The translations under genes and the position numbers were made by a program. The notes beneath the pieces were generated by a model that was given only the letters and a program-made list of their open reading frames with translations, was not told the origin of the DNA and searched no databases. From a virus, in IMG/VR virus record IMGVR_UViG_3300049893_001072, positions 1-20,862 of that record: a stretch of 20,862 nt of DNA, one strand, 5' to 3'. Of this stretch, positions 4,380 through 16,399 are shown piece after piece; position 1 is the stretch's first letter, and each line of letters opens with the position of its first letter.

Positions 4380-4917
4380 TTAAATAAGTTTGTCTGTTAA
4401 TTTTATTACTTGTTTTGTCTTTTGCTGTTATCGCTGTGATATGAAAACCGTTACCTATCCTATCACCTCCGCAATCTTTATACAATGGATATTTTGATGA
4501 GTCTATTCTTTGCTGTTGCTTGATATAAGTCAGCATTTCACCCTTATAGAACTGTGTCCACTGTTTAGCGTCTTTAATAATGTTACCCATTACCACATCA
4601 GAAGCCATTTCGCTGTTCTCTTCTGAAAATTGTCTGAATCCGGTTCTACTTTCATATACGTTGGCCCTAACAATGTAGAACTCATACGCCTGCCATGCTA
4701 AAAACTTCTTAATGTATGGGTCAAATAGTGAATCGTTATCAGTAGAAAGTGAATTTGAGTCAAACTCATCCTGTATTTCCTCAAAAAATGCCTTACCTAA
4801 CACAAAAGAAAGCATGTCCTGCGCTCTTTTGATAGGATTATCAAGCATTTTATTGTCAATGTTCTGACTAATGTCAGTTTCTTGCCGTAAATATTGGTAT
4901 GTTATTAGCTTGCTCAT
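4369..4917 (-). CDS. Head-tail connector / head completion protein candidate
   Basis: This 182-residue protein is mostly helical: ITYQYLRQETDI near the N-terminus, then helices around residues 27-50, 66-88 and 100-135. This resembles the small all-alpha adaptor proteins, of the HK97 gp6 type, that follow portal genes. The ATG at 4915-4917 overlaps the portal stop codon by 4 bases, and direct adjacency to the portal is the strongest argument for a connector role. The C-terminal 40 residues are polar and probably extended. The family is recognised only in outline, so another portal-adjacent role such as a neck protein is possible. Confidence 0.6.
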   Translation of the reverse strand: MSKLITYQYLRQETDISQNIDNKMLDNPIKRAQDMLSFVLGKAFFEEIQDEFDSNSLSTDNDSLFDPYIKKFLAWQAYEFYIVRANVYESRTGFRQFSEENSEMASDVVMGNIIKDAKQWTQFYKGEMLTYIKQQQRIDSSKYPLYKDCGGDRIGNGFHITAITAKDKTSNKINRQTYLNGD

Positions 4918-6500
4918 TCTTCCACCTCTTTAATTTTCATTTCAGCCCAATCTAACATATCCTTGCCACCCCATGCAGCAAATAAAACAGCATCACAAGA
5001 ATCCATAAACGGAGTATTCTTGTAAATTTCATTTCTTACTAAGAAATTCCTTACTCTTTTAACTTGCTTGTAACTTAATGGCTTGCCTTCAGCGATTGTT
5101 TTAGCTACATCCCATCCCATTTTAGTACCGCATCCAGGTTTTTGCTCATTCCATTTAATAGCATCGGAGGCATTTTTACGTGCCTTCTGTGGGTATTGAG
5201 TATATAAAAGATTTACCGGCCCTTGCGGTGTTGGTGTTGGTGATTCGATGATTTCAATATTGGTATTTTTCTTTATCCAGTTAAGTTTTGTTTCTGTATT
5301 AAGAACTTCCCAAATCTTATCTTCAATAGACTCATCTGCAACAAATGGAGTATGGTCTACAATCTCAAAATCAGTATCAACAGGATAATACCATTCTTTA
5401 AATATCTTTTTGTAAGTCTGCTCTAAAATAGCTTGCCATTTAGCCGCCCTTTGTTGCATTAACTTAACGGCAGCCATGATTGTATTACCGTCACCACCTA
5501 AACTTACCCCCTCGTGAATGTTTGCAAGAATAGCCGGTACTTTTGTAGCTATTGTAATGTTCTTAGTCGTTAGATTTTGTAACGTATCTAATATCTGGCT
5601 ATTAACCGATGTCGGGAAAGGCTCTACTACTGGGAACTCTTCCTTATTCTGTGCCCAAAATGCCATAATATTACCTACCCGCTCAGTGCCTGCGAACTTT
5701 TCGCCCATCATTTCATCAAACACTTCTCCAATAGTCTTAACGGCTTGTTGTTTGTTGTTATCAGAATCGAAGGCAGTGTCATCCGGATTTGTAGCCGGTG
5801 CGTTAGGGTTACCAATCAACTTAAAAATAGCGGATTGTAAGAATCCGTTTTTAAGGTTCTCTTTATGAAACTCACCTATTCTGGCGTCAACCTCCATCCA
5901 GTTTTTAGCTGAATAGTAAGAAGGCTGAGGATAAAACCTGCTTAAAGCTCTTGTAGACCCCCAGTAAAATATATGCCCTTTGAATTTCTTACCGTCTTTC
6001 TTTAACTGAGCCATAATAACAGCTGGGTCAGGATTAAAAGAATAGTAAGTTTCTGTTTTTTGTTGCTTGTATTTGTCTGTTCCGAAATAAGGATTGTACT
6101 TTATTTCATTAATTACCCCGTAACTATCAGGAATACCTAAACGGCAGTTTTCAAAAGGAACAAAAAATATCTGTGAAATCTTAGCCTCTGGGGTATACTT
6201 TATATTTAAAGATAATCCCTCATACATGGCCAAAGATTCAGCGCACAAATGATTTATTTCGTCTAATGTTTGGCCTTGCGAATTGACAACTAACTTGCCT
6301 ATGTCGGTAGAAAACCCATCACCCTGTATAAAATCTGAAATAGTGCTGATACATGAAGCCGCGGCAGGGCTTTCGTATACTAATTTTGAAAGTTTTAAAG
6401 GAAAATTATCGTTTGACCCGTAAATTAAATGGTCATCAACCTTTGAACTGTAAGGATTTTCTAAAGGTTGTCTTCTGACGTAGTTTTTAAATCTTTCCAT
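4914..6500 (-). CDS. Portal protein with an extra C-terminal helical domain
   Basis: This protein, 528 residues from the ATG at 6498-6500, has features of a phage portal: an N-terminal segment with DHLIYGSNDNFP, a clip/wing-like middle part, an Asp-rich insertion near the centre (NPDDTAFDSDNN), and a helical stem region (LGGDGNTIMAAVKLMQQRAAKW) followed by IFKEWYYP. The frame stays open upstream to a TTG at 6557, but the ATG is preferred because the first residues of the longer form lie inside the preceding glycosyltransferase gene and TTG starts appear nowhere else as the best choice. Even so it overlaps that gene by 40 bases. The last 93 residues (encoded by about 4917-5195) form a separate domain beginning YPQKARKNA and ending in AAWGGKDMLDWAE, resembling a domain found on other phage head-morphogenesis proteins. 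Portal identity is supported by the adjacent connector candidate but not proved. Confidence 0.78.
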   Translation of the reverse strand: MERFKNYVRRQPLENPYSSKVDDHLIYGSNDNFPLKLSKLVYESPAAASCISTISDFIQGDGFSTDIGKLVVNSQGQTLDEINHLCAESLAMYEGLSLNIKYTPEAKISQIFFVPFENCRLGIPDSYGVINEIKYNPYFGTDKYKQQKTETYYSFNPDPAVIMAQLKKDGKKFKGHIFYWGSTRALSRFYPQPSYYSAKNWMEVDARIGEFHKENLKNGFLQSAIFKLIGNPNAPATNPDDTAFDSDNNKQQAVKTIGEVFDEMMGEKFAGTERVGNIMAFWAQNKEEFPVVEPFPTSVNSQILDTLQNLTTKNITIATKVPAILANIHEGVSLGGDGNTIMAAVKLMQQRAAKWQAILEQTYKKIFKEWYYPVDTDFEIVDHTPFVADESIEDKIWEVLNTETKLNWIKKNTNIEIIESPTPTPQGPVNLLYTQYPQKARKNASDAIKWNEQKPGCGTKMGWDVAKTIAEGKPLSYKQVKRVRNFLVRNEIYKNTPFMDSCDAVLFAAWGGKDMLDWAEMKIKEVEE

Positions 6501-7285
6501 GTAGGTATTCCGAATACGTTCGGGCACTTTCGTAAGTGCTTTCCGTAAAATTCGCAATAATACCCGTCTTTAGCGTGAAGTAAATCGTTCAGAACTGTGG
6601 ACTTTTCAATGTTCTGCCTTGCGGTGCTGTTTCTTATTTTCTTTTTTATGTCTTTTCTAACGTAACTGTAATGATGCATTACAATTTGCGACCATTCTAT
6701 ACCTGAAGTGAATGATAACTGCCTTGTGGGGTCTACCCTTATTTGCTTTTTAATCGTATATGGTACATTATCCATTACCGACCAGGCATAAGGCATATTT
6801 CTATTTAAAACGTGATTACAATCGACTTTATTTAAAAATGGGACTAAGGTAATATCGTACCCTATCGTTAACTCAGGGCTATTAAAATACACCTGAGAGC
6901 GACATATTAATCCGTTTGTGCCTGAGTTTAAAACCCTTTCTTTTTCTTTTAAAAACTCCTCTTGTAAATAGAACTCATCGCAATCAATATCTAAGAAATG
7001 AGTATATCCTAACCTTTTAGCTGTTACCAATCCAAGTTCCCTTTTTGCTCTTTCGTTTTCTGCCGGTTGTTTTGATAGGTCTGGTTTATAGTAAATAGGG
7101 TAAACGTTATTTCGTGTTATTGAGGCGATATAATTAACTGAATCAGCCACAGAATAATCATGCTCACCTGTATTGCTTGTGGTCTGGTAAACTATTATAA
7201 TACCTTCAACACATGGGCTTATATTACTTACGCTAAACGGCAGTAATTCTATCCCATCGTATACGTTAAATATTGCGGCTACCAT
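6461..7285 (-). CDS. Glycosyltransferase with DxD motif (GT2/GT92-like)
   Basis: This 274-residue protein opens with a Rossmann-like segment (MVAAIFNVYDG). It carries the sequence KRELGLVTAKRLGYTHFL leading into DIDCDEFY at residues 99-106, in which Asp101-x-Asp103 is the expected metal/nucleotide-sugar binding motif. The combination of a lysine/arginine-led helix and THFLDIDCDEFY is typical of GT-A enzymes of the GT2/GT92 type acting on an activated sugar in the cytoplasm. A His-rich segment MHHYSYVRKD follows near residue 203. No membrane helix is present. It overlaps the zinc-ribbon gene upstream by 7 bases and the portal gene downstream by 40 bases, so portal expression is physically tied to this enzyme. 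Donor and acceptor cannot be predicted. Confidence 0.8.
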   Translation of the reverse strand: MVAAIFNVYDGIELLPFSVSNISPCVEGIIIVYQTTSNTGEHDYSVADSVNYIASITRNNVYPIYYKPDLSKQPAENERAKRELGLVTAKRLGYTHFLDIDCDEFYLQEEFLKEKERVLNSGTNGLICRSQVYFNSPELTIGYDITLVPFLNKVDCNHVLNRNMPYAWSVMDNVPYTIKKQIRVDPTRQLSFTSGIEWSQIVMHHYSYVRKDIKKKIRNSTARQNIEKSTVLNDLLHAKDGYYCEFYGKHLRKCPNVFGIPTWKDLKTTSEDNL

Positions 7286-7470
7286 TTATTTATTTCGCAT
7301 GATTCATCAGGTTCACTTGCTTTAGCTTTCAAAGGACATCCGCATAAATTACAAACCCCGTAATAGTTATGCGTACATGATTTACATATACGTAAACGTC
7401 TGCGCATTAGTTTGAGCTCTCTGCCTACTATAAGATTAAACCAACCTCGTAAAATATGCCTAATATTCAT
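7279..7470 (-). CDS. Small cysteine-rich zinc-ribbon-like protein
   Basis: This 63-residue protein has a basic N-terminal helix (residues 1-26) followed by Cys29-x2-Cys32, Cys40-x2-Cys43-x-Cys45 and Cys58, and it ends in INKW. The paired CxxC motifs suggest one bound zinc ion. I associate short proteins with this spacing and a terminal KW with Bacteroidota phages, but not with a defined function. The gene overlaps both neighbours (11 bases upstream, 7 bases downstream) and lies between two glycosyltransferase-like genes and next to another small protein. An adaptor or nucleic-acid-binding role are both possible. Confidence 0.7.
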   Translation of the reverse strand: MNIRHILRGWFNLIVGRELKLMRRRLRICKSCTHNYYGVCNLCGCPLKAKASEPDESCEINKW

Positions 7471-7702
7471 TTAAATATTTTTTGACTTCATTCCAATATT
7501 GAAATATAGGTGCATCAGGATTACCATTACATGTTAACCACCAAGATTGTATAACCTCATCACAAACCTTTAAAGCACTTCTTTTAGCTGATTCTTTACT
7601 GGCTTTCTTAAATACATTACCCCAGTCCGCTGTTCCTTCCATCTCTGAGAACTCATAAAACGTTTCATAGAGTTCATCGGCTTTTTCTTTTGGTGTTTTC
7701 AT
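7460..7702 (-). CDS. Small helical phage protein, unknown function
   Basis: From the ATG at 7700-7702 this is 80 residues, beginning MKTPKEKADELYETFYEF, with a second helix SAKRSALKVCDEVIQ near residues 39-53 and a C-terminal WNEVKKYLNEY. The ATG is chosen over an upstream TTG because it forms a 4-base ATGA overlap with the preceding glycosyltransferase-like gene. Proteins starting TPKEKAxEL with a downstream AKRxALxxxDE helix are familiar to me as very common, uncharacterised small phage proteins of Bacteroidota. Its place inside the glycan cassette may be incidental. Confidence 0.7.
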   Translation of the reverse strand: MKTPKEKADELYETFYEFSEMEGTADWGNVFKKASKESAKRSALKVCDEVIQSWWLTCNGNPDAPIFQYWNEVKKYLNEY

Positions 7703-8358
7703 TGGCTTAATAAACAAACTGAATCACTAAATTTAATTACTTCTCCTGTTTCTAATCTTACTCCATCATGAGCAGCATAACAGAAGAATGTTTTATGTCC
7801 GGTTAATATTTTCATATTCAAATCATAAATTAAACAACTTGCTACGCTTTGGTCATGGCGGTGGTCATTCCATTTCCCATGATATAAATCAGTTAACCCT
7901 ATGTAGTCTTTTAAAAACTTCTGAGTAATGTCATGGTCTACATTAAAAGCCATACAACAGGCCATAATCATGTTGATATTCATGGCCTCCTGCCTGGTTA
8001 TACCAAAGTATTGAAGGCATTTGTCATTTGTCCACATCCCCAAACTATGACCGATGTTATTAAAAAAAGCATAACCATGCTGCGCAATATGGTCAAAAAG
8101 TGGGTGTATCGGTTTGATAGCAATAATCGGACTATCACACCATATAATTTGACTGTAACCAAGCTCAATCGCTTTCTTAATGGCATAGGATTTAAACTTA
8201 TAAGGTACCACTGAATGATGTTCACAGTTAATCTCTTTATAATCCGTAAACATTAACAGGTCTGCATCTGTATTGTCTTTTAAAGACTGTTCAAGGCGTT
8301 TTAACTTACGCTTATAATCTCCAGCTCCATCAGCAAAACTAACTATGCAACGCTTCAT
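7699..8358 (-). CDS. Glycosyltransferase-like protein with atypical CDS motif
   Basis: From the ATG at 8356-8358 the protein has 219 residues, starting MKRCIVSFADGAGDYKR. The frame extends further upstream (ATG at 8391, TTG at 8415), but those starts lie deeper inside the preceding gene and the conserved-looking core begins at the chosen ATG, which overlaps that gene by 20 bases. Key segments are FTDYKE, YKFKSYAIKKAIELGYSQIIWCDSPI and HRHDQSVASCL. The layout of a helix ending in IIWCDS at the expected metal-binding position, then a late HDQS, recalls small retaining-type sugar transferases of the GT8/GT32 fold, although the usual DxD is replaced by C-D-S. Donor and acceptor are unknown. It is embedded among other glycan genes, which supports the assignment. 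Confidence 0.65.
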   Translation of the reverse strand: MKRCIVSFADGAGDYKRKLKRLEQSLKDNTDADLLMFTDYKEINCEHHSVVPYKFKSYAIKKAIELGYSQIIWCDSPIIAIKPIHPLFDHIAQHGYAFFNNIGHSLGMWTNDKCLQYFGITRQEAMNINMIMACCMAFNVDHDITQKFLKDYIGLTDLYHGKWNDHRHDQSVASCLIYDLNMKILTGHKTFFCYAAHDGVRLETGEVIKFSDSVCLLSQ

Positions 8359-8941
8359 AGGCTTCTGATTTAGTAGTTCTGTTATATTCATGTAAAATAT
8401 TATCTGAATGCGCAAAGGTACGGCAGTTCTTTAATGCCTGTTTTATAAATCCTGTGTCTTCATCCCAATTAGCATCAGGGAAATTAACACCTTCCAATAC
8501 GCCACGCCTGAAGGCGCATACATGGTACGGCCTTCTGTTTATAATCCCTGGTTTAGCTTGGTCATCTAACTTTGTTTTGAAGTGCATCTTTACCACCATC
8601 CAGAAGTTATCAAACTTGGATATGTTATTGAAAGTGCATACATCTGCCCCTTTATTAGCAAGCCTTACCAAAGTTTCAACGTAATCCGGGCTTATATTGT
8701 CGTCATCATCAAGCCAACAAACATACTCACCTTTTGAAAGCTCTAAACCTTTCTGCCTTTTACGGCCTATTGAATCACCACCGTCTTTAAACTTAGGGCT
8801 GTTTACTTCTACTATTTCAATTTGTCCTAATGTCGGATGGTACTTTTGACAATAGTCTATTTGTGATTGGACTTTTGTCTTTAGCTTTTGAAAACTCTCT
8901 GAACGCTCAGGAATGGTAATCATTATAATACTCAGAATCAT
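8339..8941 (-). CDS. GT2-family glycosyltransferase (second of a paralogous pair)
   Basis: This 200-residue GT-A enzyme begins MILSIIMITIPERSE, has GRKRQKGLELSKGEYVCWL leading into LDDDD at residues 77-81, the metal/nucleotide-sugar binding motif, and a late WDEDTGF that supplies the acidic catalytic position of inverting GT2 enzymes. Its overall plan and the phrases TIPER and (W/Y)VC-x-(I/L)DDDD match the enzyme at 10156-10713, so the two are probably paralogues with different donor or acceptor use. It is shorter than many GT2 proteins and has no membrane segment, so it should act in the cytoplasm. The start overlaps the FkbM-type methyltransferase stop by 4 bases. Confidence 0.85.
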   Translation of the reverse strand: MILSIIMITIPERSESFQKLKTKVQSQIDYCQKYHPTLGQIEIVEVNSPKFKDGGDSIGRKRQKGLELSKGEYVCWLDDDDNISPDYVETLVRLANKGADVCTFNNISKFDNFWMVVKMHFKTKLDDQAKPGIINRRPYHVCAFRRGVLEGVNFPDANWDEDTGFIKQALKNCRTFAHSDNILHEYNRTTKSEAYEALHS

Positions 8942-9540
8942 TTAGCGTAAATTAAGTTTTCTGCACTCGTATAAATAACATTGAACCCATAAAGTATTCG
9001 GTCAAATTCTGACTTTACTTCTGGCTTACTATTCCACTCAGCACACACTAACTTTACATCTGTAAAGTCCATCTGTTTCATAATTTCAACTTCCATTCCT
9101 TCCACGTCAATACTTACAAAATCAAACTTCTTAAACTTTATCCTGTTTAAAAAAGTCTTATATCTGTAGCATTGAACCTCTACATCAGTATACTGTGTTG
9201 TTGACTTCCATCGGTTTGTTTCTTCAGGTATTAACGTACTCAATAAACCTGAATCAGATTTGCCTAAATGGGAACCGCTATCTTTAAGAATTACTTTGTC
9301 GTTAGTGGTTCCTAAAGCAAACGGATAACAGTAAACGTTTTTATTACCCTTGTAAAGCTCTTGTAATTTAACAAAAGCAGTTGGCGAAGGCTCAACACAT
9401 ACCCCACTCCATCCCTGCTCCGCCAATGCTCTTGTATTACTCAAGGTTATCCCGTCATTGCTTCCAATATCGAGAAACACACCTTTAAAATCTTTGAAGT
9501 AATCTTTAATTACTTGCTCTTCGTTATTCTGTGAATACAT
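8938..9540 (-). CDS. FkbM-family methyltransferase
   Basis: From the ATG at 9538-9540 this is a 200-residue class I SAM-dependent methyltransferase. It has an N-terminal SQNNEEQVI segment, the SAM-binding motif FLDIGSNDG at residues 22-30, VCVEPSP at 48-53 as the acidic motif II region, and SIDVEGME at 143-150, which is characteristic of FkbM enzymes. The family O-methylates sugars or small-molecule hydroxyls. The ATG is preferred over a TTG at 9552 because it forms a TAATG stop-start overlap with the TylF-like gene. Two different O-methyltransferases in succession beside glycosyltransferases suggest that a sugar in the built glycan is methylated at more than one position or step. Confidence 0.9.
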   Translation of the reverse strand: MYSQNNEEQVIKDYFKDFKGVFLDIGSNDGITLSNTRALAEQGWSGVCVEPSPTAFVKLQELYKGNKNVYCYPFALGTTNDKVILKDSGSHLGKSDSGLLSTLIPEETNRWKSTTQYTDVEVQCYRYKTFLNRIKFKKFDFVSIDVEGMEVEIMKQMDFTDVKLVCAEWNSKPEVKSEFDRILYGFNVIYTSAENLIYAK

Positions 9541-10178
9541 TATTTTTTCCAATAAGTTATACCATTATTTAAAACACATTGAGGTTGGTCATCATAAGCA
9601 TAGTTACCTAAATATTCATAAAATGCTTTCTTGCATCCGGCAAGATTCCAGTCATCTATAATCATAATACCGCCTTTTACTAACTGAGGGTAAAGATGTT
9701 CTAAACACACCTTAGTACTATCATAAAGGTCACCGTCTAACCTTAAAACAGCTATACCATTAGGCGCATCCCATAAAGGAACGGTGTGCTGAAACCATCC
9801 CTTGATTAAAGTGTAGTTTTCTAATCCCCATCGCTCAAAATTCTTTTCTACATCTTCAAATGAATGGACCGTAATGCCTGAGCTTTCTAAAACTCCATCC
9901 TTGCCTTTAACTTTCTTACTCATACCAGGCTGTTGGTCATCTTTAGGACCAGCCCACGGGATACCCTCAAATGAATCAAAACCGTAAGCATGACGGCCAG
10001 CGTAAGCCATAGCCGCTAGGTTGTTTCCGGTAGCTACTCCGCACTCTACAAAATCACCTTCAATATTATTATCAATTACATATTTAGCGCATTGATATGT
10101 TAATTCTATTGTCTGCCAAGTAGAATAATTAGGCTCAATGATTCTGCTAATCTGTTTATTTTTGGGTTCTGAAATCAT
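9540..10178 (-). CDS. TylF/MycF-type macrocin O-methyltransferase family protein
   Basis: This 212-residue protein has the TylF signature: EGDFVECGVATG at residues 40-51 (SAM-binding loop), YGFDSFEGIP at 65-74, RLDGDLYDST at 146-155 and IIDDW at 173-177, where the aspartates are the expected metal ligands. TylF enzymes methylate sugar hydroxyls in antibiotics, and relatives are common in surface-polysaccharide clusters. It overlaps the upstream GT2 gene by 23 bases and shares a stop-start junction with the FkbM gene. Length is slightly shorter than bacterial TylF proteins but all core motifs are present, so it should be active. The acceptor sugar cannot be named. Confidence 0.9.
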   Translation of the reverse strand: MISEPKNKQISRIIEPNYSTWQTIELTYQCAKYVIDNNIEGDFVECGVATGNNLAAMAYAGRHAYGFDSFEGIPWAGPKDDQQPGMSKKVKGKDGVLESSGITVHSFEDVEKNFERWGLENYTLIKGWFQHTVPLWDAPNGIAVLRLDGDLYDSTKVCLEHLYPQLVKGGIMIIDDWNLAGCKKAFYEYLGNYAYDDQPQCVLNNGITYWKK

Positions 10179-10713
10179 AATGATATAAATGCTTTGGAAT
10201 ATGTACGCTCGTTTTTATAAGGTTTAAATCTTTTATTCTTGTAGCCCATGCGAAATCTTCACCTTGCCAAACTTCAGGAAATCTAACCTGATTAGCTATT
10301 GATTTTCTAATAACCGCTAAGTGATTAGGATACCTGAAAAACATATACTTACCCTTCTCATGCCTTGCCTCGTATCTTTCACCTAACTTAATAACCCAGT
10401 CTACCCTATTCCTGCCGTTCTCAGTATACCAACCCTCAAAGGTTACGCAGTCAGGATTCGATTCTAAAGCCTTTAGGATGTCGTCAATATATGTAGGAGC
10501 TATCCAGTCATCGTCATCAATAAAACACACCCATGCCCCGGAAGATTGATTTATAAGGTCGTTTCTTTTCTTTCCTGTTGGCACATGCTTTGGCCGTGGG
10601 TCTATTAAAAACTCCACCGGCTTACCTTCCATTTGAGGCGTTAACAAATTACTCAACCTTTTGAGGTAATTTGCCCGCTCAGGAATGGTGCACGTGAGGA
10701 TTGATAATTTCAT
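10156..10713 (-). CDS. GT2-family glycosyltransferase
   Basis: This 185-residue protein starts MKLSILTCTIPERAN, has KKRNDLINQSSGAWVCFI leading into DDDD at residues 66-69, followed by Trp, as the sugar-nucleotide and metal motif, and WQGEDFAWATRI near residues 149-160, whose Glu-Asp pair matches the catalytic acid/base region of GT2 enzymes. No transmembrane helices follow, so it is a soluble short GT-A enzyme. The ATG overlaps the upstream stop by 4 bases. It is the clear counterpart of the enzyme at 8339-8941. Confidence 0.87.
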   Translation of the reverse strand: MKLSILTCTIPERANYLKRLSNLLTPQMEGKPVEFLIDPRPKHVPTGKKRNDLINQSSGAWVCFIDDDDWIAPTYIDDILKALESNPDCVTFEGWYTENGRNRVDWVIKLGERYEARHEKGKYMFFRYPNHLAVIRKSIANQVRFPEVWQGEDFAWATRIKDLNLIKTSVHIPKHLYHYDFRTQK

Positions 10714-11360
10714 AGCGGAAACCCTTGTAATCTTCTTTTCTCAAATAATCTTTCGCCCTGCTTCCAGTATCCTTCACTTTTCTTATATGTTTCATCCATT
10801 GGCGCTTTACCTACGCTAGGATGTTTATGTTCAAACTTTAAATGCCGTGCATATCGTAACCATCCGTTACGTTTTACAACCTCGTATAAGTCGCAATCAC
10901 AAAACATGCTTTTATAATCAGGATGCCAGAAATAACCCAAAGTATTGTAAAGTTCTTTTGACATTATAGGGATAGTCAATACCGGAACTTCAAACTTCTG
11001 TAAACAGTCATCAACCTTAATAAGAAATACTGAGCTTGGAATATGTGTTTTTATTTCGTGCTCTAATAGCTGTGCCCAATTATCAGGGCAATCAAAATCG
11101 TCACTAAGGTAAATAAGAACATCACCAGTAGCAAGTTTAGCCGCATGGTTGGTAGCCTGAACAACACAATCGTTATCGTTCATGGTAACCTTTAAATCCA
11201 TGCCGGTACTTAATTCTAAATAATCAAACTTCTTAGAATCGCTTGTGTCTAACGATAGTATCCACTCAACATCACCGCCTGATTTTTCAATCCATTTTTT
11301 AGCTGTTTGAATCGCTTGCTGTGGTCTGCCTCGGCTTGGATGGATTAAACTAAACCTCAT
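10710..11360 (-). CDS. Glycosyltransferase, GT-A fold, SDDFD motif
   Basis: From the ATG at 11358-11360 the protein has 216 residues, beginning MRFSLIHPSRGRP, a start typical of GT2-like proteins that bind a nucleotide sugar. It has ATNHAAKLATGDVLIYL leading into SDDFD at residues 86-90 as the metal-binding motif, and a histidine-containing segment FEHKHPS near the C-terminus. The ATG is chosen over a GTG at 11396 because it gives the 4-base ATGA overlap with the preceding gene that most genes here show. It lies first among the clear glycosyltransferases of the cassette after the DUF4422-like protein. The transferred sugar is unknown. Confidence 0.82.
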   Translation of the reverse strand: MRFSLIHPSRGRPQQAIQTAKKWIEKSGGDVEWILSLDTSDSKKFDYLELSTGMDLKVTMNDNDCVVQATNHAAKLATGDVLIYLSDDFDCPDNWAQLLEHEIKTHIPSSVFLIKVDDCLQKFEVPVLTIPIMSKELYNTLGYFWHPDYKSMFCDCDLYEVVKRNGWLRYARHLKFEHKHPSVGKAPMDETYKKSEGYWKQGERLFEKRRLQGFPL

Positions 11361-12010
11361 AAATATTCTACTTTCAAATTCTGCGTTTCTAACCACTGAC
11401 TAAAAAACCTTTCACAGATAAAAGGATGCATAGGGTAATAACCTACCCCCAAATCAATCTTAGCCTTATCTGTTAATGGTTCTCTTTTCAATTTTGTATA
11501 GTTTGCGTTCTGCCAACATAGTTTGTTTATCTCAGCATCATTTACCATAACATCCATGCATGGTATTAAAAACTCTGTCACATATTTCTTATAAATTTGT
11601 GACTTGGCTATAAAAGCATTTTGATACACCGGATATTTAGGTTCTTTGGGGATTATGTTTACCGCTTTTACCATAATTTTAGTGAGTAGCTCGGTAAAAC
11701 CAGGATGCCAAACCTCAGCGCCCGCTAACATCTTGTGAAATTTAGAACTGCGGCTGAAGGAAAGCACGTCATAATCCTCTTCAAGTACTTCCCTAGTTAA
11801 TTTTCTGATGTTTAACCGCATTTTTGAACGCAAAGCCCATGAAGTAACGGATATTTTATCGCAATCAGCCTCTAAAACCAGCTTTTTTATGACTGCATTC
11901 TCAAAAAATGGCGTTAGTTTGTCGTTAAAGTAAGGTATCGCAAATGGATACAGATGTGAAAGCTGTAAATCTCGGTAGTAAATCTGATAAAATTTTATTT
12001 CCTGAGCCAT
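11357..12010 (-). CDS. DUF4422-like putative glycosyltransferase
   Basis: This 217-residue protein has KFYQIYYRDLQLSHLYPF at residues 6-23 and a C-terminal pair of segments, NAFIAKSQIYKKYVTEFLIP (131-150) and HPFICERFFSQWLE (195-208), that parallel the conserved end of DUF4422 proteins, which occur in polysaccharide and glycan clusters. The parallel is from memory of the family pattern, not a search. No DxD motif stands out, so if it is a transferase its sugar-binding site is unusual; it could instead be an acceptor-recognition partner. It overlaps the small cysteine protein by 16 bases and the next glycosyltransferase by 4 bases. Confidence 0.5.
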   Translation of the reverse strand: MAQEIKFYQIYYRDLQLSHLYPFAIPYFNDKLTPFFENAVIKKLVLEADCDKISVTSWALRSKMRLNIRKLTREVLEEDYDVLSFSRSSKFHKMLAGAEVWHPGFTELLTKIMVKAVNIIPKEPKYPVYQNAFIAKSQIYKKYVTEFLIPCMDVMVNDAEINKLCWQNANYTKLKREPLTDKAKIDLGVGYYPMHPFICERFFSQWLETQNLKVEYL

Positions 12011-12168
12011 GCCAGCACTTTTCTATAACAGGAACCACATTTATACCCTACCTGTGTATCCCCCGTGCTATTTTTATAAGCATCAAACGCCTCAACCCAT
12101 ACAGGATGCTCTTTGAATGTACCTAAAACACCGTTATCTGATAGCTTTTTAAGTAATTCCGCCTTCAT
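11995..12168 (-). CDS. Small protein with CxxC motif, 57 aa
   Basis: A short ORF runs from the ATG at 12166-12168 to the TAA at 11995-11997. The protein begins MKAELLKKLSDNG, continues with FKEHPVWVEAFDAYKNSTG and ends with KCGSCYRKVLAWLRK, so it has a single CxxC close to the C-terminus. It overlaps the start of the DUF4422-like gene by 16 bases and lies 37 bases after the small membrane-protein gene. Amino-acid composition, dense coding context and consistent overlap argue for a real gene. I recall similar small CxxC phage proteins in Bacteroidota phages but no function. One CxxC alone could bind metal only as a dimer or with a partner. Confidence 0.65.
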   Translation of the reverse strand: MKAELLKKLSDNGVLGTFKEHPVWVEAFDAYKNSTGDTQVGYKCGSCYRKVLAWLRK

Positions 12169-12205: not shown

Positions 12206-12403
12206 TTATTCCGGCCTTAATTTTAATTCATATTCAATCCGGATAATTTTCTTTTCGATATTGTCGGCTTTCTCGGCTACTCTTTTAATATCTGTTTTAA
12301 CCTCGTTGTAAGAGGTAACCATCAGGAAAGATGCCAATGAAATAGACCCATACATTATCCATTTCATGACTGTTGTTATATCTGTTCTCATTTCTGTGCT
12401 CAT
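12206..12403 (-). CDS. Small membrane-anchored coiled-coil protein, 65 aa
   Basis: This 65-residue protein has one predicted membrane helix at about residues 14-32 (KWIMYGSISLASFLMV) followed by a charged coiled coil (residues about 35-60, EVKTDIKRVAEKADNIEKK). This is the topology of some holin-accessory and spanin-like proteins, and of small anchors in phage operons. It sits between the fibre (4 bases apart) and the glycan cassette. It could recruit a glycan enzyme to the inner membrane or act in lysis; neither is supported beyond topology. Confidence 0.65.
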   Translation of the reverse strand: MSTEMRTDITTVMKWIMYGSISLASFLMVTSYNEVKTDIKRVAEKADNIEKKIIRIEYELKLRPE

Positions 12404-12407
12404 TGGT

Positions 12408-13586
12408 TTATGCTATTCTTATTGCCCTTATTGAAGTTGATTTATCAGAATTATTTGATACGTTGTTAGCCGTATTTAAACCCGTACCGTCCGAAACAAT
12501 ACAGTTACCAGTTTGAGTTGTAGCACCCCTTGCCCCCCTTAATTTATAAGTAGTAGTGGAAGCAGGTGTTACTATTGCTGATAGCGTTACATTACCCCAA
12601 GTTCTTACAGTTGCAGTACCGGCTACTATGTGCTGTGCACCTTCCGCTATCACTGTGTTTGCATTATCAGTTATTGCCGCTATTAAAACCGTTGCCGTGG
12701 TTGTTTGTGATGAGCCGTTTATTGTAGCTAATATCAACCACGTACCCGCAGCCAATGAAATGCTTGCCCCTGTAATATCCGCATAAGTAGCAGCCGATAA
12801 AGTAGTTTCTGCTGTACAAAATGCCTGGGCTGTTGTTAAACTTATTGCCTTAGTTGTTGTTCCTGTTAATCCAAAACCATTAGTAATTACCGGCTCTTTA
12901 CCATCAAGAGTAGTTTGTAAATTGGTTATATCTGATATTGCGTGAGTATGTGTAGATGCCGCATAACTACCTGATGCCTGTTTACCATCTAAGGCAGTTT
13001 GAAGTCCTGTTACATCACTAATAGCGTGACTGTGTGTAGATGATGCCTTACCGTCTAATGTTGTTTGTAGGCTTGTTATATCGCTTATTACGTGACTATG
13101 AGTAGTAGGCGCATCACCTACATACATAAAATCCCCATCTGTTACGGCTGTATTAAATTGCGCCTTAGTGCCTGTTATGCCTACTATTGAGGTTTGGTCG
13201 CCTGTATTTGTTCCTGTGATAGCATCTAGTTTAGTCTCTTGGGCATCGGTCATAAACCTTTTATCAGTGCTATCAGTTTGGTTTGCCGTTGTATTTAAAC
13301 CTAAGTTAGTTCTTGCCGTTGATGCATTAGTTAAGTCTGATAAATTATTACTTGAAAGTAAATCACCACCACCGGCAAGAGTAGCAAATTCAAGAGCGTT
13401 AGAACCTGCGTTTACCTTAACAAACTTACCAGCCTGACCTGAGAAACTTGATGGAGTATCAGTAAGAGCTAAAAAAGTAGTAGCACCTGATGAACCACCA
13501 CTTGTATTAATAATGGTAGTGGTTTTCTTAGATGCAGCTCTTTTAATCTTTTTATTTAAACTCCTATATGCTTTTTTAAAGTCCAT
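12408..13586 (-). CDS. Tail fibre with His-x-His repeats and C1q-like head domain
   Basis: This 392-residue fibre has a basic N-terminal helix (residues 1-25), a Gly/Ser linker, a shaft containing NLSDLTNASTARTNLGL, and three near-identical repeats of the type HSHAISDVTGLQTALDGK at residues 163-180, 185-202 and 213-230. His-x-His in trimeric fibre shafts can bind metal ions along the axis. The C-terminal 140 residues (ATYADITGASISLAAGTWL, TTTYKLRGARGAT, DKSTSIRAIRI) resemble the C1q/TNF-like beta head found at the tips of Bacteroidota prophage fibres and are the likely receptor-binding part. The first codon is immediately preceded by the U-tract of a terminator, so expression may depend on read-through. 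The same architecture is seen in outline at 2381-3736. Confidence 0.85.
   Translation of the reverse strand: MDFKKAYRSLNKKIKRAASKKTTTIINTSGGSSGATTFLALTDTPSSFSGQAGKFVKVNAGSNALEFATLAGGGDLLSSNNLSDLTNASTARTNLGLNTTANQTDSTDKRFMTDAQETKLDAITGTNTGDQTSIVGITGTKAQFNTAVTDGDFMYVGDAPTTHSHVISDITSLQTTLDGKASSTHSHAISDVTGLQTALDGKQASGSYAASTHTHAISDITNLQTTLDGKEPVITNGFGLTGTTTKAISLTTAQAFCTAETTLSAATYADITGASISLAAGTWLILATINGSSQTTTATVLIAAITDNANTVIAEGAQHIVAGTATVRTWGNVTLSAIVTPASTTTYKLRGARGATTQTGNCIVSDGTGLNTANNVSNNSDKSTSIRAIRIA
12897..13100 (-). repeat. Three in-frame His-x-His repeats in the fibre gene
   Basis: The coding stretch holds three copies at 13047-13100, 12981-13034 and 12897-12950, each 54 bases, encoding HSHVISDITSLQTTLDGK-type units. 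Spacer lengths between them differ (12 and 30 bases). Such repeats can change in number by slippage or recombination and thereby change fibre length. Confidence 0.85.
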
Positions 13587-13641: not shown

Positions 13642-14187
13642 TTATGCTGTTCTTGCTTCAAGGTACGCTAATGTAGTATTTACATCCGTTCTTAAAAACC
13701 TTTTCGGCAATTCTCTCTCTGAACCGGTCAAAGTTAAAGTCGTTACAGTTGAGTCGGCAAGTTGTCTGCCTGTCCCGCCTGTTCCATCCGTTAAACCTAA
13801 ACCTGATGCAGCACCGTAGATGAAAAACTCATCATTGTTCGTTTGAACTATTACAAACACATCAGAAGTCAATAAGTCTTCAATTACTCCGTCATCGGTA
13901 GGGTCATTGTTAAACAACCTTAAAATAACGGTTTGGTTAATAGCCACGTTACCACCTTCAGACTTTACAGCCTGGAAGCTGGCCTCATGGCTAAACTTTG
14001 AAGACTCAAACAAATATAAAGACTGATATGTAGAAAGTTCAATGTTAGTAACATACGATGAGCCGGTTGCTATGGTGCTGGATAGGTCCTCAATATTACC
14101 CACCCATACACGTTTTGCAACACCGCCTACCCTTCTAAGGTCATCGCATGATACAGTTATCCCAGTTGATATTCTACAATTCGCCAT
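13642..14187 (-). CDS. Probable tail tube (major tail) protein
   Basis: This 181-residue protein begins MANCRISTGITVSCDDL, then VGGVAKRVWVGN, and continues with alternating beta-prone segments (YLFESSKFSHEASF, QTVILRLFNND, VFVIVQTNND), ending TTLAYLEARTA. A short N-terminal cysteine pair followed by a GGV-x-VWVGN strand is a layout I associate with major tail tube proteins of Bacteroidota phages. It directly follows the capsid gene (3-base gap) and is followed by a strong terminator, a common arrangement for a highly expressed structural gene. Size is in the normal range for tail tubes. A head-decoration role cannot be excluded from sequence alone. Confidence 0.65.
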   Translation of the reverse strand: MANCRISTGITVSCDDLRRVGGVAKRVWVGNIEDLSSTIATGSSYVTNIELSTYQSLYLFESSKFSHEASFQAVKSEGGNVAINQTVILRLFNNDPTDDGVIEDLLTSDVFVIVQTNNDEFFIYGAASGLGLTDGTGGTGRQLADSTVTTLTLTGSERELPKRFLRTDVNTTLAYLEARTA

Positions 14188-14190
14188 ATA

Positions 14191-15261
14191 TTAGTCGTGG
14201 AATGCGATTAAATCACAGTTAATAAATTGAACACCAAAACGCATTGCTGATTGCATGTAGTATGTTTTTAACCTCTGGTCGTAAAAACCTTCTAAGCTAT
14301 TCAGGTCAGCAGCATTTTCAACACCTAAAACGATGTTAGCAAAACGAGATGAACCTTTAGTAGTGTAGATGATAAAGTTCTTCATGTTGTTATAGAATGG
14401 GTTAGAAGAATCTTGCAGGTCGTTATCTGCAATCCACAGAGGGCGAACTTCAATACCACGATAGAACAACTGAGTAGTACCATCTTGCAACAGCTTAAAC
14501 TGGCCTTCAGTACCGTTAGTGTTAGCTTCCAAAGAACCTAAATAGTTCTCGTAAACTGCACCGGTTACCCAGAACACTTTTTCAGAGTTAGGGATTTGCT
14601 TCAGGATGATAGCAGCTCCTTCATGAGTAGCTTTCAACGCTGTAAGAGATTCACCAGAAGTTAGTACAGTGGTAGCTGAGTTACCCAATGAGTTACCTAC
14701 ACGCTTAACGCAGTAGTTAGAGAATGCATCGTACATCTTTACAAAAAGACCTTCAATCATATTGTAGTCAGATGAACCTGCAGCATCGTTACCGAAAAGT
14801 GCTATACGCCAAATGTCACGTCTTACAGAATCCAAAAGTTGGTCAAACAAGAATGAACGTAACTTTGCAGTTGGCTCGAACCCTGCTAAACCATCGGCTG
14901 CCCATGTGGGGTCGTTAGTAAGCTGAGAAGCAGCAGATGACCATTCCTCATAACACCACTCATGATTAATCTCAAACTTTGCTACACTCAACTTACGGTC
15001 AGATAAAGTACCTGATGCTGTGTAAGTAGGTGAACAACCTTGAGCCGCCTTCAGAATCTTAGAAAGAGGGGCACCATAGATAAGGTACTCATCAGTTCTG
15101 ATTCCCTGGCGGATGTTAAACATATCAGAAAGTGCAGGCGTGCCAATAGATGGCTGCATGAAAATTTCTGTAGGCAAATTACCATCAAAGGTAAATGATG
15201 GAGAATAAGTATAGCCGGCTGCGTTCTGTGGGCCAGCGTTTTTAAATTTGTGTGCTTTCAT
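14191..15261 (-). CDS. Probable major capsid protein (HK97-type fold expected)
   Basis: This 356-residue protein follows directly after the protease-scaffold gene (10-base gap), the usual place of the major capsid gene. The N-terminal region has an extended segment (GPQNAAGYTYSPSFTFDG), then the helical pattern EINHEWCYEEWSS near residues 97-109 and a long helical stretch FDQLLDSVRRDIWRIALFG (139-157), like the spine helix and flanking parts of HK97-fold capsids. The C-terminus has MRFGVQFINCDLIAF. No coiled-coil scaffold is present, in agreement with the scaffold residing in the upstream gene. Cleavage by the protease may remove a few N-terminal residues but no clear site is visible. G+C is higher here (27 of 60 bases at 14581-14640) than in the fibre/hydrolase region, as often seen for strongly expressed capsid genes. 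Confidence 0.8.
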   Translation of the reverse strand: MKAHKFKNAGPQNAAGYTYSPSFTFDGNLPTEIFMQPSIGTPALSDMFNIRQGIRTDEYLIYGAPLSKILKAAQGCSPTYTASGTLSDRKLSVAKFEINHEWCYEEWSSAASQLTNDPTWAADGLAGFEPTAKLRSFLFDQLLDSVRRDIWRIALFGNDAAGSSDYNMIEGLFVKMYDAFSNYCVKRVGNSLGNSATTVLTSGESLTALKATHEGAAIILKQIPNSEKVFWVTGAVYENYLGSLEANTNGTEGQFKLLQDGTTQLFYRGIEVRPLWIADNDLQDSSNPFYNNMKNFIIYTTKGSSRFANIVLGVENAADLNSLEGFYDQRLKTYYMQSAMRFGVQFINCDLIAFHD

Positions 15262-15271
15262 TTTTAGTTGG

Positions 15272-16399
15272 TTAAATTAATCTACGGCCCTGTAAAAATC
15301 TTCTCAAATCCTCAGTAGCAGGGTCGTATACTTCTGTGGTTTCTACATTCTTATCTGGTGCATCCTGTGGGCCGTTCTGCTCGCCTACGGTTACATTTTT
15401 CAGCTCATTGTATTTAGCTTCAAGTGCTTTAATTGATGCCTCAAACTTTGCAATCTTCTTGTTAGATACTTCAGCCTCTTTAGCTTTAGCTTCTACCTCC
15501 TGATTCTTAGCATCCAGTAAAGCCTGCATTTCTTCGAGCTTCTTTTTCATGTCTTCCATCGGGTCAGTAGTCTCTTCCGGCTCAGGTGCAGGCGCTTGAA
15601 TAGCGGCCGATACTGTGCCTTGTTGAATAGTCAACTCAATACCCTCAGCGGTCTGATATACACCATCTTCCAAAGGTGAACCGTCAACAGTTGAAACGGT
15701 AGCCCCTACCATTTCCTCAGCGGTAGGCGTTTCGCTTTCTGTTCCTACTACCACCTGAACACCATTAGCCAATGTCAGAGTAGCTACGTTTTTAGGTGAT
15801 TCACCCGTAATCAGGTTTTTCAATTCAGCAAATCCTTTATCCAGGATTTCAACCAGTTTATTTTTTTCTTTACTCATTTTAATTTTTGTTACATCTATGT
15901 AGGCAACGGCTTTTAGTTTGTCTTGTATTTCATCAACGAAGCCCCGCTGTTTAGCTTCATCGGCTGTCATCCACGTCTCATTATCCATCATCATAGATAA
16001 TTCATCAGGGCTTAAACCTGTCCGTTTCTGATACACTGATATAATGGTATTCTTAATGCGGTCAAGCTGGCCGGCAGCATTGATTAAGTCATCGGACTCA
16101 CCGCTTAAGGTTACATTAGGATTGTGTATCATGAATTCGGCCGGTTTAGTCATAATGACCTTATCACCTGCCTGCGCTATTAATGTGGCTATGGATGCGC
16201 AAAGTCCTTCGATTATTACAGTAGTTGGTTTTTTGAGGTTTGAAAGTATGCCGTAAATAGCATACCCCTCATACACATCACCGCCTACAGATGAGATATG
16301 CACCTCGTAATCTGTGGCGTTTGGTTCTATTTGGTCTTGAATAGATTTAGCAGTAACCTGCGCACCTATTTCTCCATAAATGAAAATATGCCCTGTCAT
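15272..16399 (-). CDS. ClpP-like prohead protease fused to scaffold-like domain
   Basis: This 375-residue protein begins with a ClpP/S14-type domain (residues 1-165): HISSVGGDVYEGYAIYG (34-50), GLCASIATL (65-73) with Ser69 in the nucleophile position, MIHNP (90-94) with His92, and MMMDNETWMTADEA (136-149) with Asp139, matching the catalytic triad. Residues 175-375 are hydrophilic and contain a coiled coil (DMKKKLEEMQALLDAKNQEV), the expected form of a scaffold. The protein should therefore supply both the maturation protease and the internal scaffold during capsid assembly. Met175 (codon 15875-15877), preceded by an A-rich leader, could start an independent scaffold. It lies 44 bases after the helix-turn-helix gene, without overlap. 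Confidence 0.88.
   Translation of the reverse strand: MTGHIFIYGEIGAQVTAKSIQDQIEPNATDYEVHISSVGGDVYEGYAIYGILSNLKKPTTVIIEGLCASIATLIAQAGDKVIMTKPAEFMIHNPNVTLSGESDDLINAAGQLDRIKNTIISVYQKRTGLSPDELSMMMDNETWMTADEAKQRGFVDEIQDKLKAVAYIDVTKIKMSKEKNKLVEILDKGFAELKNLITGESPKNVATLTLANGVQVVVGTESETPTAEEMVGATVSTVDGSPLEDGVYQTAEGIELTIQQGTVSAAIQAPAPEPEETTDPMEDMKKKLEEMQALLDAKNQEVEAKAKEAEVSNKKIAKFEASIKALEAKYNELKNVTVGEQNGPQDAPDKNVETTEVYDPATEDLRRFLQGRRLI
15875..15877 (-). promoter_or_regulatory. Possible internal start codon for an independent scaffold protein
   Basis: An in-frame ATG at residue 175 of the protease-scaffold gene lies at the boundary between the protease domain and the coiled coil. Its leader on the minus strand, ACAAAAATTAAA, is A/T-rich like the leaders of the other non-overlapping genes here. 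It would yield a 201-residue scaffold alone, comparable to the nested scaffold (Nu3) inside the C protease gene of phage lambda. Confidence 0.4.

Follow-up and report, generated by a model that had tools for sequence, protein, structure and literature searches.

Why does a tailed phage carry a run of sugar-modifying genes between its capsid and portal genes, and what would their product be attached to? The question is raised by a window of 20,862 nucleotides from the IMG/VR virus record IMGVR_UViG_3300049893_001072, in which a block of glycosyltransferase and methyltransferase genes occupies the minus strand from 12168 to 6461. The initial annotation had placed a cassette of overlapping genes at 6461–12168, and this was borne out by gene coordinates, verified ATG starts and stops, and overlaps of 1 to 23 bases at every junction from u0 to A. 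Chance cannot account for the cassette: its ten overlapping genes point the same way, and nearly all belong to families that related phages conserve. A scan for sigma-70 promoters and terminators gave no excess over shuffled sequences, so no internal promoter is claimed.

Gene content of the cassette and its flanks

All genes described here lie on the minus strand. The upstream flank encodes a ClpP-type head maturation protease (15272–16399), a putative major capsid protein (14191–15261) without a database match, called from its position after the protease, and s13642 (13642–14187), a conserved putative virion protein that matches phrog_19091 and, weakly, phrog_19979 (virion structural). The window alone has, in the gap from s13642 to u0, a tail-repeat fibre gene and a gene for a 65-aa protein (12206–13586). 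The upstream boundary gene, u0 (11995–12168), encodes a 57-aa small Cys protein (KCGSCYRKVLAWL); it fell below the threshold of the ORF list, overlaps J, belongs to a conserved family and accounts for the upper limit of 12168 given initially. The portal gene (4914–6557; phrog_11226, 4e-52) forms the downstream flank. Fibre/GDSL genes follow the portal gene in the window.

HMM searches, suggested by the initial annotation, assigned E, H, G, F and I to Pfam or PHROG families and gave no match of their own for A or D. E (8339–8941) and H (10156–10713) are paralogous GT2 glycosyltransferases that exceed the Pfam cut-off (2e-11 and 1e-8, respectively). The interior gene I (10710–11360) encodes a GT-A glycosyltransferase that is sub-threshold in Pfam and has a PHROG glycosyltransferase match (phrog_14945, 1e-20). 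G (9540–10178) is a TylF-type O-methyltransferase (Pfam, 2.6e-33) and F (8938–9540) an FkbM-type methyltransferase (Pfam, 2e-16; fkbM_fam, 6e-18), both over cut-off and as first read from the sequence. Enzymes of these two families act on sugars or small molecules.

D (7699–8358) has a confident GT-A predicted structure (pLDDT 95.7) with a GT8/GT6/PBCV-1-A064R-like fold; Foldseek aligned the model with LARGE1 (2e-7) and also with BoGT6a, LgtC and the PBCV-1 capsid glycosyltransferase (2p6w, E = 5e-6). A (6461–7285), the final gene ahead of the portal, encodes a probable GT-A glycosyltransferase of GmaR/GT2-like type. Two of eight members of its family match GT2 weakly, a D-x-D-E motif is invariant in the family, and the sole structural sequence match of the family profile is the glycosyltransferase domain of GmaR (E = 0.001), which glycosylates flagellin. 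A relative of A is encoded in the Flavicella marina chromosome. J (11357–12010) is possibly a glycosyltransferase: the best model has a pLDDT of 88.9 (range of five models, 54–89), its closest fold is WbbM (TM 0.49, E = 1.1e-3), the likeness to GT-A is weak and a catalytic motif is not evident. PDB sequence searches with D, J, the capsid protein and s13642 returned nothing usable. Among the four enzymes first called clear GT-A proteins, A is not clear by profile; of two further glycosyltransferase-like proteins, D was strengthened by its model and J is only weakly GT-A-like.

Two small proteins complete the cassette. C (7460–7702) matches phrog_21441 and has no orthologue among the slots compared, and B (7279–7470) is a zinc-ribbon-like DUF6171 protein at the downstream boundary.

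A constant slot with an exchangeable interior

Relatives were found by a scan anchored on the capsid gene, which is not biased to the cassette. Single-protein scans with the portal or TylF protein gave few or no relatives and alignments were required instead; the portal alignment was too diverse for scanning. When the FkbM profile was iterated, it shifted to a longer gene lying upstream, probably owing to a 394-aa ORF in one locus (L106) that contains FkbM. That longer gene, which has no Pfam match, is taken from its conserved residues to encode a GT4-like GT-B enzyme, and from then on it was covered by its own GTB profile. No phage record was matched by megablast of the window or found by tblastn of D, J, s13642 and the capsid protein. 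Across 50,697 phage records, neither the capsid protein nor s13642 has a relative, and the identity of the portal to any phage record does not exceed 24%. A literature search found no description of this slot.

The capsid–portal interval is spanned by 26 other contigs, and at least one glycosyltransferase is encoded there in 26/26; a one-off chance acquisition was rejected on this ground. Whether the cassette is conserved or replaceable had been left as a question for comparison, and the answer is divided: the edges are conserved and the interior is exchanged among the 26 contigs. At the edges, u0 and J follow the capsid gene and s13642, and B and/or A precede the portal. J is present in 26/26. 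In most complete slots a u0 orthologue separates s13642 from J, and orthologues also occur in the minimal slots L174 and L175 and after s13642 in L142. The interiors comprise window-like sets (18), sets with fucosyltransferase, epimerase, GT25 and GT47 genes (5), single enzymes (2) and one intermediate. Some slots encode sugar-nucleotide enzymes, either a GDP-mannose dehydratase with an FdtA-like cupin or an NAD-dependent epimerase.

Correlations of protein identity with the virion genes were computed over the 15 loci that carry the full set. J follows the virion genes closely (r = 0.91, bootstrap 0.81–0.96), within the range of the capsid protein, s13642 and portal on the same measure (0.88–0.94). 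Values are 0.66 for A and 0.62 for F, and fall to 0.47 for D, 0.42 for H and 0.19 for I. J is inherited together with the virion genes; I, H and D are not. AU tests of the pair L156/L159 gave p = 0.37 for the capsid, 0.04 for J, 9e-39 for I and 2e-72 for H. Loci L007 and L183 share 68% capsid identity, yet their interiors are of different types. The slot interior is exchangeable between close relatives. This property is more interesting than the cassette itself and is invisible from the window alone.

The core set I, H, F and D is also found in unrelated phages, upstream of the terminase or inverted beside virion genes. Only in this phage lineage, then, is the cassette locked into the structural operon as first described, and the placement of the core set in the other phages shows that it need not be co-transcribed with the capsid gene.

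Candidate targets of the glycan

The initial annotation had proposed a methylated-glycan pathway tied to virion genes. Such a multi-enzyme pathway is well supported by comparative genomics, and the virion is favoured as target over the host surface or DNA. Three lines of evidence argue for this choice: the lack of flippase, GtrA or thymidylate-synthase/dCMP-hydroxymethylase homologues together with almost no membrane helices, the homology to virion-glycosylation enzymes of the Che8 and Corndog types, and the co-inheritance of J with capsid and portal genes. Searches of 24 related records found a flippase in 0/24 (control 14/14), GtrA (PF04138) over cut-off in 0/24 (control 7/14) and thymidylate synthase/dCMP hydroxymethylase (PF00303) in 0/24 (control 9/14). 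TET was likewise found in 0/24, but with a silent control this result is not decisive. The related records may be fragments.

The enzymes might instead remodel host surface polysaccharide late in infection and so mask receptors or exclude superinfecting phages, a function comparable to that of gtr serotype-conversion cassettes. Bacterial surface-polysaccharide loci often contain GT2 and methyltransferase genes, the F. marina relative of A lies in a locus resembling one, and nucleotide-sugar genes occur in several slots. However, the gtr cassette has a GtrA flippase and membrane-anchored transferases, whereas the 24 related records gave no flippase and no GtrA over cut-off, and the enzymes have few predicted transmembrane helices. 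In this lineage the cassette also keeps a fixed position beside virion genes, with J co-inherited with capsid and portal. Host remodelling is thus unlikely.

Decoration of tail fibres or spikes only, tuning attachment and leaving the capsid and s13642 unmodified, is less probable again. In the window the tail-repeat fibre gene immediately precedes u0 and fibre/GDSL genes come after the portal, but the former is absent from that position in other slots, where the constant neighbours are the capsid and s13642 genes, and mycobacteriophage glycans are reported on the capsid and tail tube (PMC12619734).

Glycosylation of phage DNA against restriction, with hypermodified bases extended by several glycosyltransferases, is the least probable reading, given the substrates of FkbM and TylF enzymes, the PF00303 result and a cassette that adjoins virion genes. 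Phage glycosyltransferases that hypermodify DNA with diverse glycans are nonetheless known (Pyle 2024, cited in PMC12619734).

Glycosylated proteins have been reported for Che8, Corndog and Myrna (PMC12363180). Che8 (cluster F) gp108 is a fusion whose N-terminal half is homologous to the H/E-type glycosyltransferases (H profile, 7e-46; E profile, 2e-29) and whose C-terminal half is a TylF methyltransferase homologous to G (2e-21). G also matches Firecracker gp33 (HMM, 2e-22). Che8 gp108–110 lie at the right end of the genome record, whereas the window cassette lies among virion genes. Che8 gp109/110 and Firecracker gp34–36 have no homologue in the window, and no cassette profile or BLAST search matched Che8 gp109/110 or Firecracker gp35/36. 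The Che8 gp110/Corndog gp38-type glycosyltransferase has been called essential for glycosylation by others, and for want of it the cassette is treated as a variant of the Che8/Corndog type rather than a member.

The cassette was rightly said to exceed the single glycosyltransferase usual in phages, but Corndog-type (cluster O) phages already had a four-gene glycosyltransferase/O-methyltransferase block (Firecracker gp33–36, Corndog gp35–38). Its genes overlap and lie inside the head operon (PMC4351075), as here, and its methyltransferase is homologous to G. It differs in having four genes rather than eleven, in the lack of an FkbM enzyme, and in its place between portal and protease instead of between capsid/s13642 and portal. 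Exchange between close relatives, as seen in the slot here, is not described for that block in the literature consulted.

Chlorovirus PBCV-1 also encodes glycosyltransferases (A064R and others) for its major capsid glycan, mostly without transmembrane domains, together with a predicted methyltransferase domain and a GDP-mannose dehydratase (PMC5408694). The fold of D is close to a PBCV-1 capsid glycosyltransferase domain; PBCV-1 is a eukaryotic virus with no sequence homology shown, and the likeness is analogy only.

A model of glycan assembly and its meaning

The preferred reading, with a probability of roughly 0.6, is that the cassette serves a Bacteroidota-type tailed phage as an exchangeable locus for glycan biosynthesis. 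It would decorate virion proteins with a methylated glycan, J providing the constant first step. Against this reading weigh the core set lying upstream of the terminase or inverted in other phages, the weak fold match of J and the lack of a Che8 gp110 homologue in the window. MAG contigs suggest Sphingobacteriales/Chitinophagales as candidate hosts of the lineage. We infer the target protein, the order of steps, the glycan structure and the benefit. Soluble enzymes produced alongside virion proteins would work in the cytoplasm to assemble a short O-methylated oligosaccharide, most likely directly on a virion protein, with the capsid protein or s13642 as first candidates. J would recognise that protein, and the interior genes would lengthen the chain begun by J. 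Five or six glycosyltransferases (I, H, E, D, A and possibly J) would attach sugars, and G and F would methylate them. A swap of the interior would then alter the surface glycotype and leave capsid and portal in place.

Bacterial O-antigen and capsule loci have conserved flanks and an exchangeable interior of glycosyltransferases, methyltransferases and nucleotide-sugar enzymes. The phage slot shares this pattern, but no flippase was found, it is in a phage, and its boundary gene J is co-inherited with virion genes. More tentatively, and at somewhat less than even odds, the slot may be a phage serotype locus. A constant primer, J, would then evolve in step with the capsid, the enzymes that follow J would be replaced one at a time or as whole sets, the sugar coat of the particle would be diversified in O-antigen-like fashion, and the core set would pass between unrelated lineages.

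Relatives keep the cassette at the same spot and swap its content, which suggests particles coated with changeable methylated sugars. Virion glycosylation by phage-encoded enzymes was previously known in a few actinobacteriophages. If the reading is true, it would also characterise a whole lineage of uncultured Bacteroidota-type phages, in which the enzyme set is exchanged at a fixed slot. Switching of the phage surface glycotype would become a testable process, and natural variants with full, alternative and minimal slots would be at hand for probing the purpose of the coat.

Organization and enzymes of the block

The linear 20,862-base record makes up the entire window, and its main genes all lie on the minus strand. 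In transcription order, the genes for a tail protein, a tape measure (PHROG match, 9e-23), a small protein, a ClpP-type head protease (4e-58) and a putative capsid protein lead to s13642, a conserved putative virion protein (13642..14187, minus). The putative capsid gene gave no match in database searches and is named from its position. After s13642 come a tail-repeat fibre gene, a 65-aa gene, the block u0-J-I-H-G-F-E-D-C-B-A (12168-6461, minus) and the portal (4e-52), followed by a DUF6712 protein, more small and fibre-like genes, a GDSL protein and a DUF5675 protein. The initial annotation placed the block correctly, and every junction within it is overlapping or touching. Its first gene, u0 (12168-11995, minus), encodes 57 aa and falls under the ORF-list threshold. 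Only in the window do the fibre and 65-aa genes (12206-13586) separate s13642 from u0; in sister locus L142, whose capsid is 79% identical, that position is taken by a 92-aa ORF, resembling by eye the window fibre C-terminus, and u0 follows.

E and H, a pair of paralogues, belong to GT2, G and F are methyltransferases of the TylF and FkbM families, and I is a glycosyltransferase by PHROG match. D, without a family of its own, gives a confident GT-A model (pLDDT 95.7), with LARGE1, XXYLT1, WbbM, BoGT6a, LgtC and the PBCV-1 capsid glycosyltransferase as closest solved folds. A is probably a GT-A enzyme because its DxDE motif is invariant, its profile weakly matches the GmaR glycosyltransferase domain and two relatives have weak GT2 matches. 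J weakly resembles GT-A. B is a DUF6171 protein of zinc ribbon-like appearance; C and u0 are small proteins. Longer, apparently fused versions of cassette enzymes include a D of ~402 aa in L113-L117 and an FkbM ORF of 394 aa in L106.

Slot contents and inheritance

Related loci were scanned with a capsid alignment so that they were not selected by enzyme content. Of 50 loci, 26 span s13642 to portal, an interval of 1.8 to 8.6 kb that holds at least one glycosyltransferase in every case. J follows s13642 in all 26, mostly with u0 ahead of it, and B and/or A lie ahead of the portal. The interior is window-like in 18/26 (I, H, F, D, usually E and often G, in varying order), with additions of GDP-mannose dehydratase and FdtA-like cupin, extra methyltransferases, radical SAM and HNH-like endonucleases. 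Five have a different interior, with varying combinations of GT11, GT2, NAD epimerase, Methyltransf_24, GT25, FkbM, GT47 and GT2_4. L174 and L175 contain a single recognised glycosyltransferase besides J, and L188 is intermediate. In L097/L098 the homologous interval holds one 150-aa gene without a cassette, and a wide-type cassette lies elsewhere. HNH-like genes inside the slot (L048:8142-8708, L154, L164), named from sequence and not by profile, are possibly agents of slot exchange. At L013:7561-8346, an in-slot radical SAM/SPASM protein adjoins an extra glycosyltransferase-like gene and a second FkbM-family ORF.

In the 15 loci that carry the full set, J identities between pairs of loci correlate with virion-gene identities at r=0.91, as strongly as virion-gene identities correlate among themselves (r=0.88-0.94). 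The correlation with virion genes is 0.19 for I, 0.42 for H, 0.47 for D, 0.62 for F and 0.66 for A. All of these correlations come from non-independent pairs, best-hit choice among paralogues (H/E) makes them noisier, and evolutionary rates may be uneven for some interior genes. Trees point the same way: a constraint that keeps L156 and L159 together, a pair picked after identities had been seen, is accepted for capsid (p=0.37) and rejected for I (9e-39) and H (2e-72), with J borderline (0.04). L007 and L183 have different interior types despite sharing 68% of capsid residues.

The core set in other phages

When IMG/VR was scanned with alignments of D, TylF and FkbM, >100 loci were recovered. 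Of the loci anchored on FkbM, 23 have sufficient flanking sequence on either side. All 23 contain I and H, 20 contain D, 17 a longer GTB-family enzyme with an additional glycosyltransferase-like gene (c5), and 15 a terminase large subunit. The largest group carries the core immediately upstream of terminase genes. The core is inverted relative to flanking tail-like genes in L011, there also relative to a GpA-type terminase, and in L126 and L130, both MAG-binned contigs; in L063 an inverted core adjoins a lambda-type portal and MCP-E capsid gene, and in L080 it is set between other putative virion genes. Several unrelated phage lineages therefore have the core in common.

Elsewhere, a lone TylF methyltransferase (L005:6083-6820) follows genes resembling T4-type capsid and tail tube. 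In other phages (L109-L115), stand-alone proteins of ~210 aa encoded near terminase match the portal family profile, apparently via the portal C-terminal domain (C-terminus of window 4914-6557). A chromosomal A relative in Flavicella marina (L139:9977-10768) lies among genes resembling a surface-polysaccharide locus. Large Sphingobacteriales MAG contigs (L129, L131) harbour proteins related to A, B, protease and capsid, apparently in prophages, which hints at the host phylum.

Known systems and proposed route

G and H/E have homologous enzymes in the mycobacteriophage Che8 and a Corndog-type phage. Published work reports mycobacteriophage glycans on capsid and tail tube (PMC12619734; PMC12363180), and the block of Corndog-type phages is located between portal and protease (PMC4351075). 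The window block shares two enzyme families and a similar proposed working with Corndog/Che8 virion glycosylation; however, the gp110/gp38 family is missing, so by gene content the block appears to be a variant and not a member. The likeness to PBCV-1, which has a glycosyltransferase, a methyltransferase domain and a GDP-mannose dehydratase (PMC5408694), is an analogy.

A simple hydropathy scan found TM-like stretches in few members of the enzyme families, and one in the window's A. The 24 related records searched, which may be fragments, contained no flippase or thymidylate-synthase/hydroxymethylase homologues and nothing over cut-off for GtrA; a TET search of these records likewise gave no hit, with a silent control. 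Given the few TM-like stretches and the missing flippase, GtrA and thymidylate-synthase/hydroxymethylase homologues, the simplest route would be stepwise sugar transfer onto a protein in the cytoplasm. Because J is co-inherited with the virion genes, we infer that it may be the constant enzyme that recognises a virion protein.
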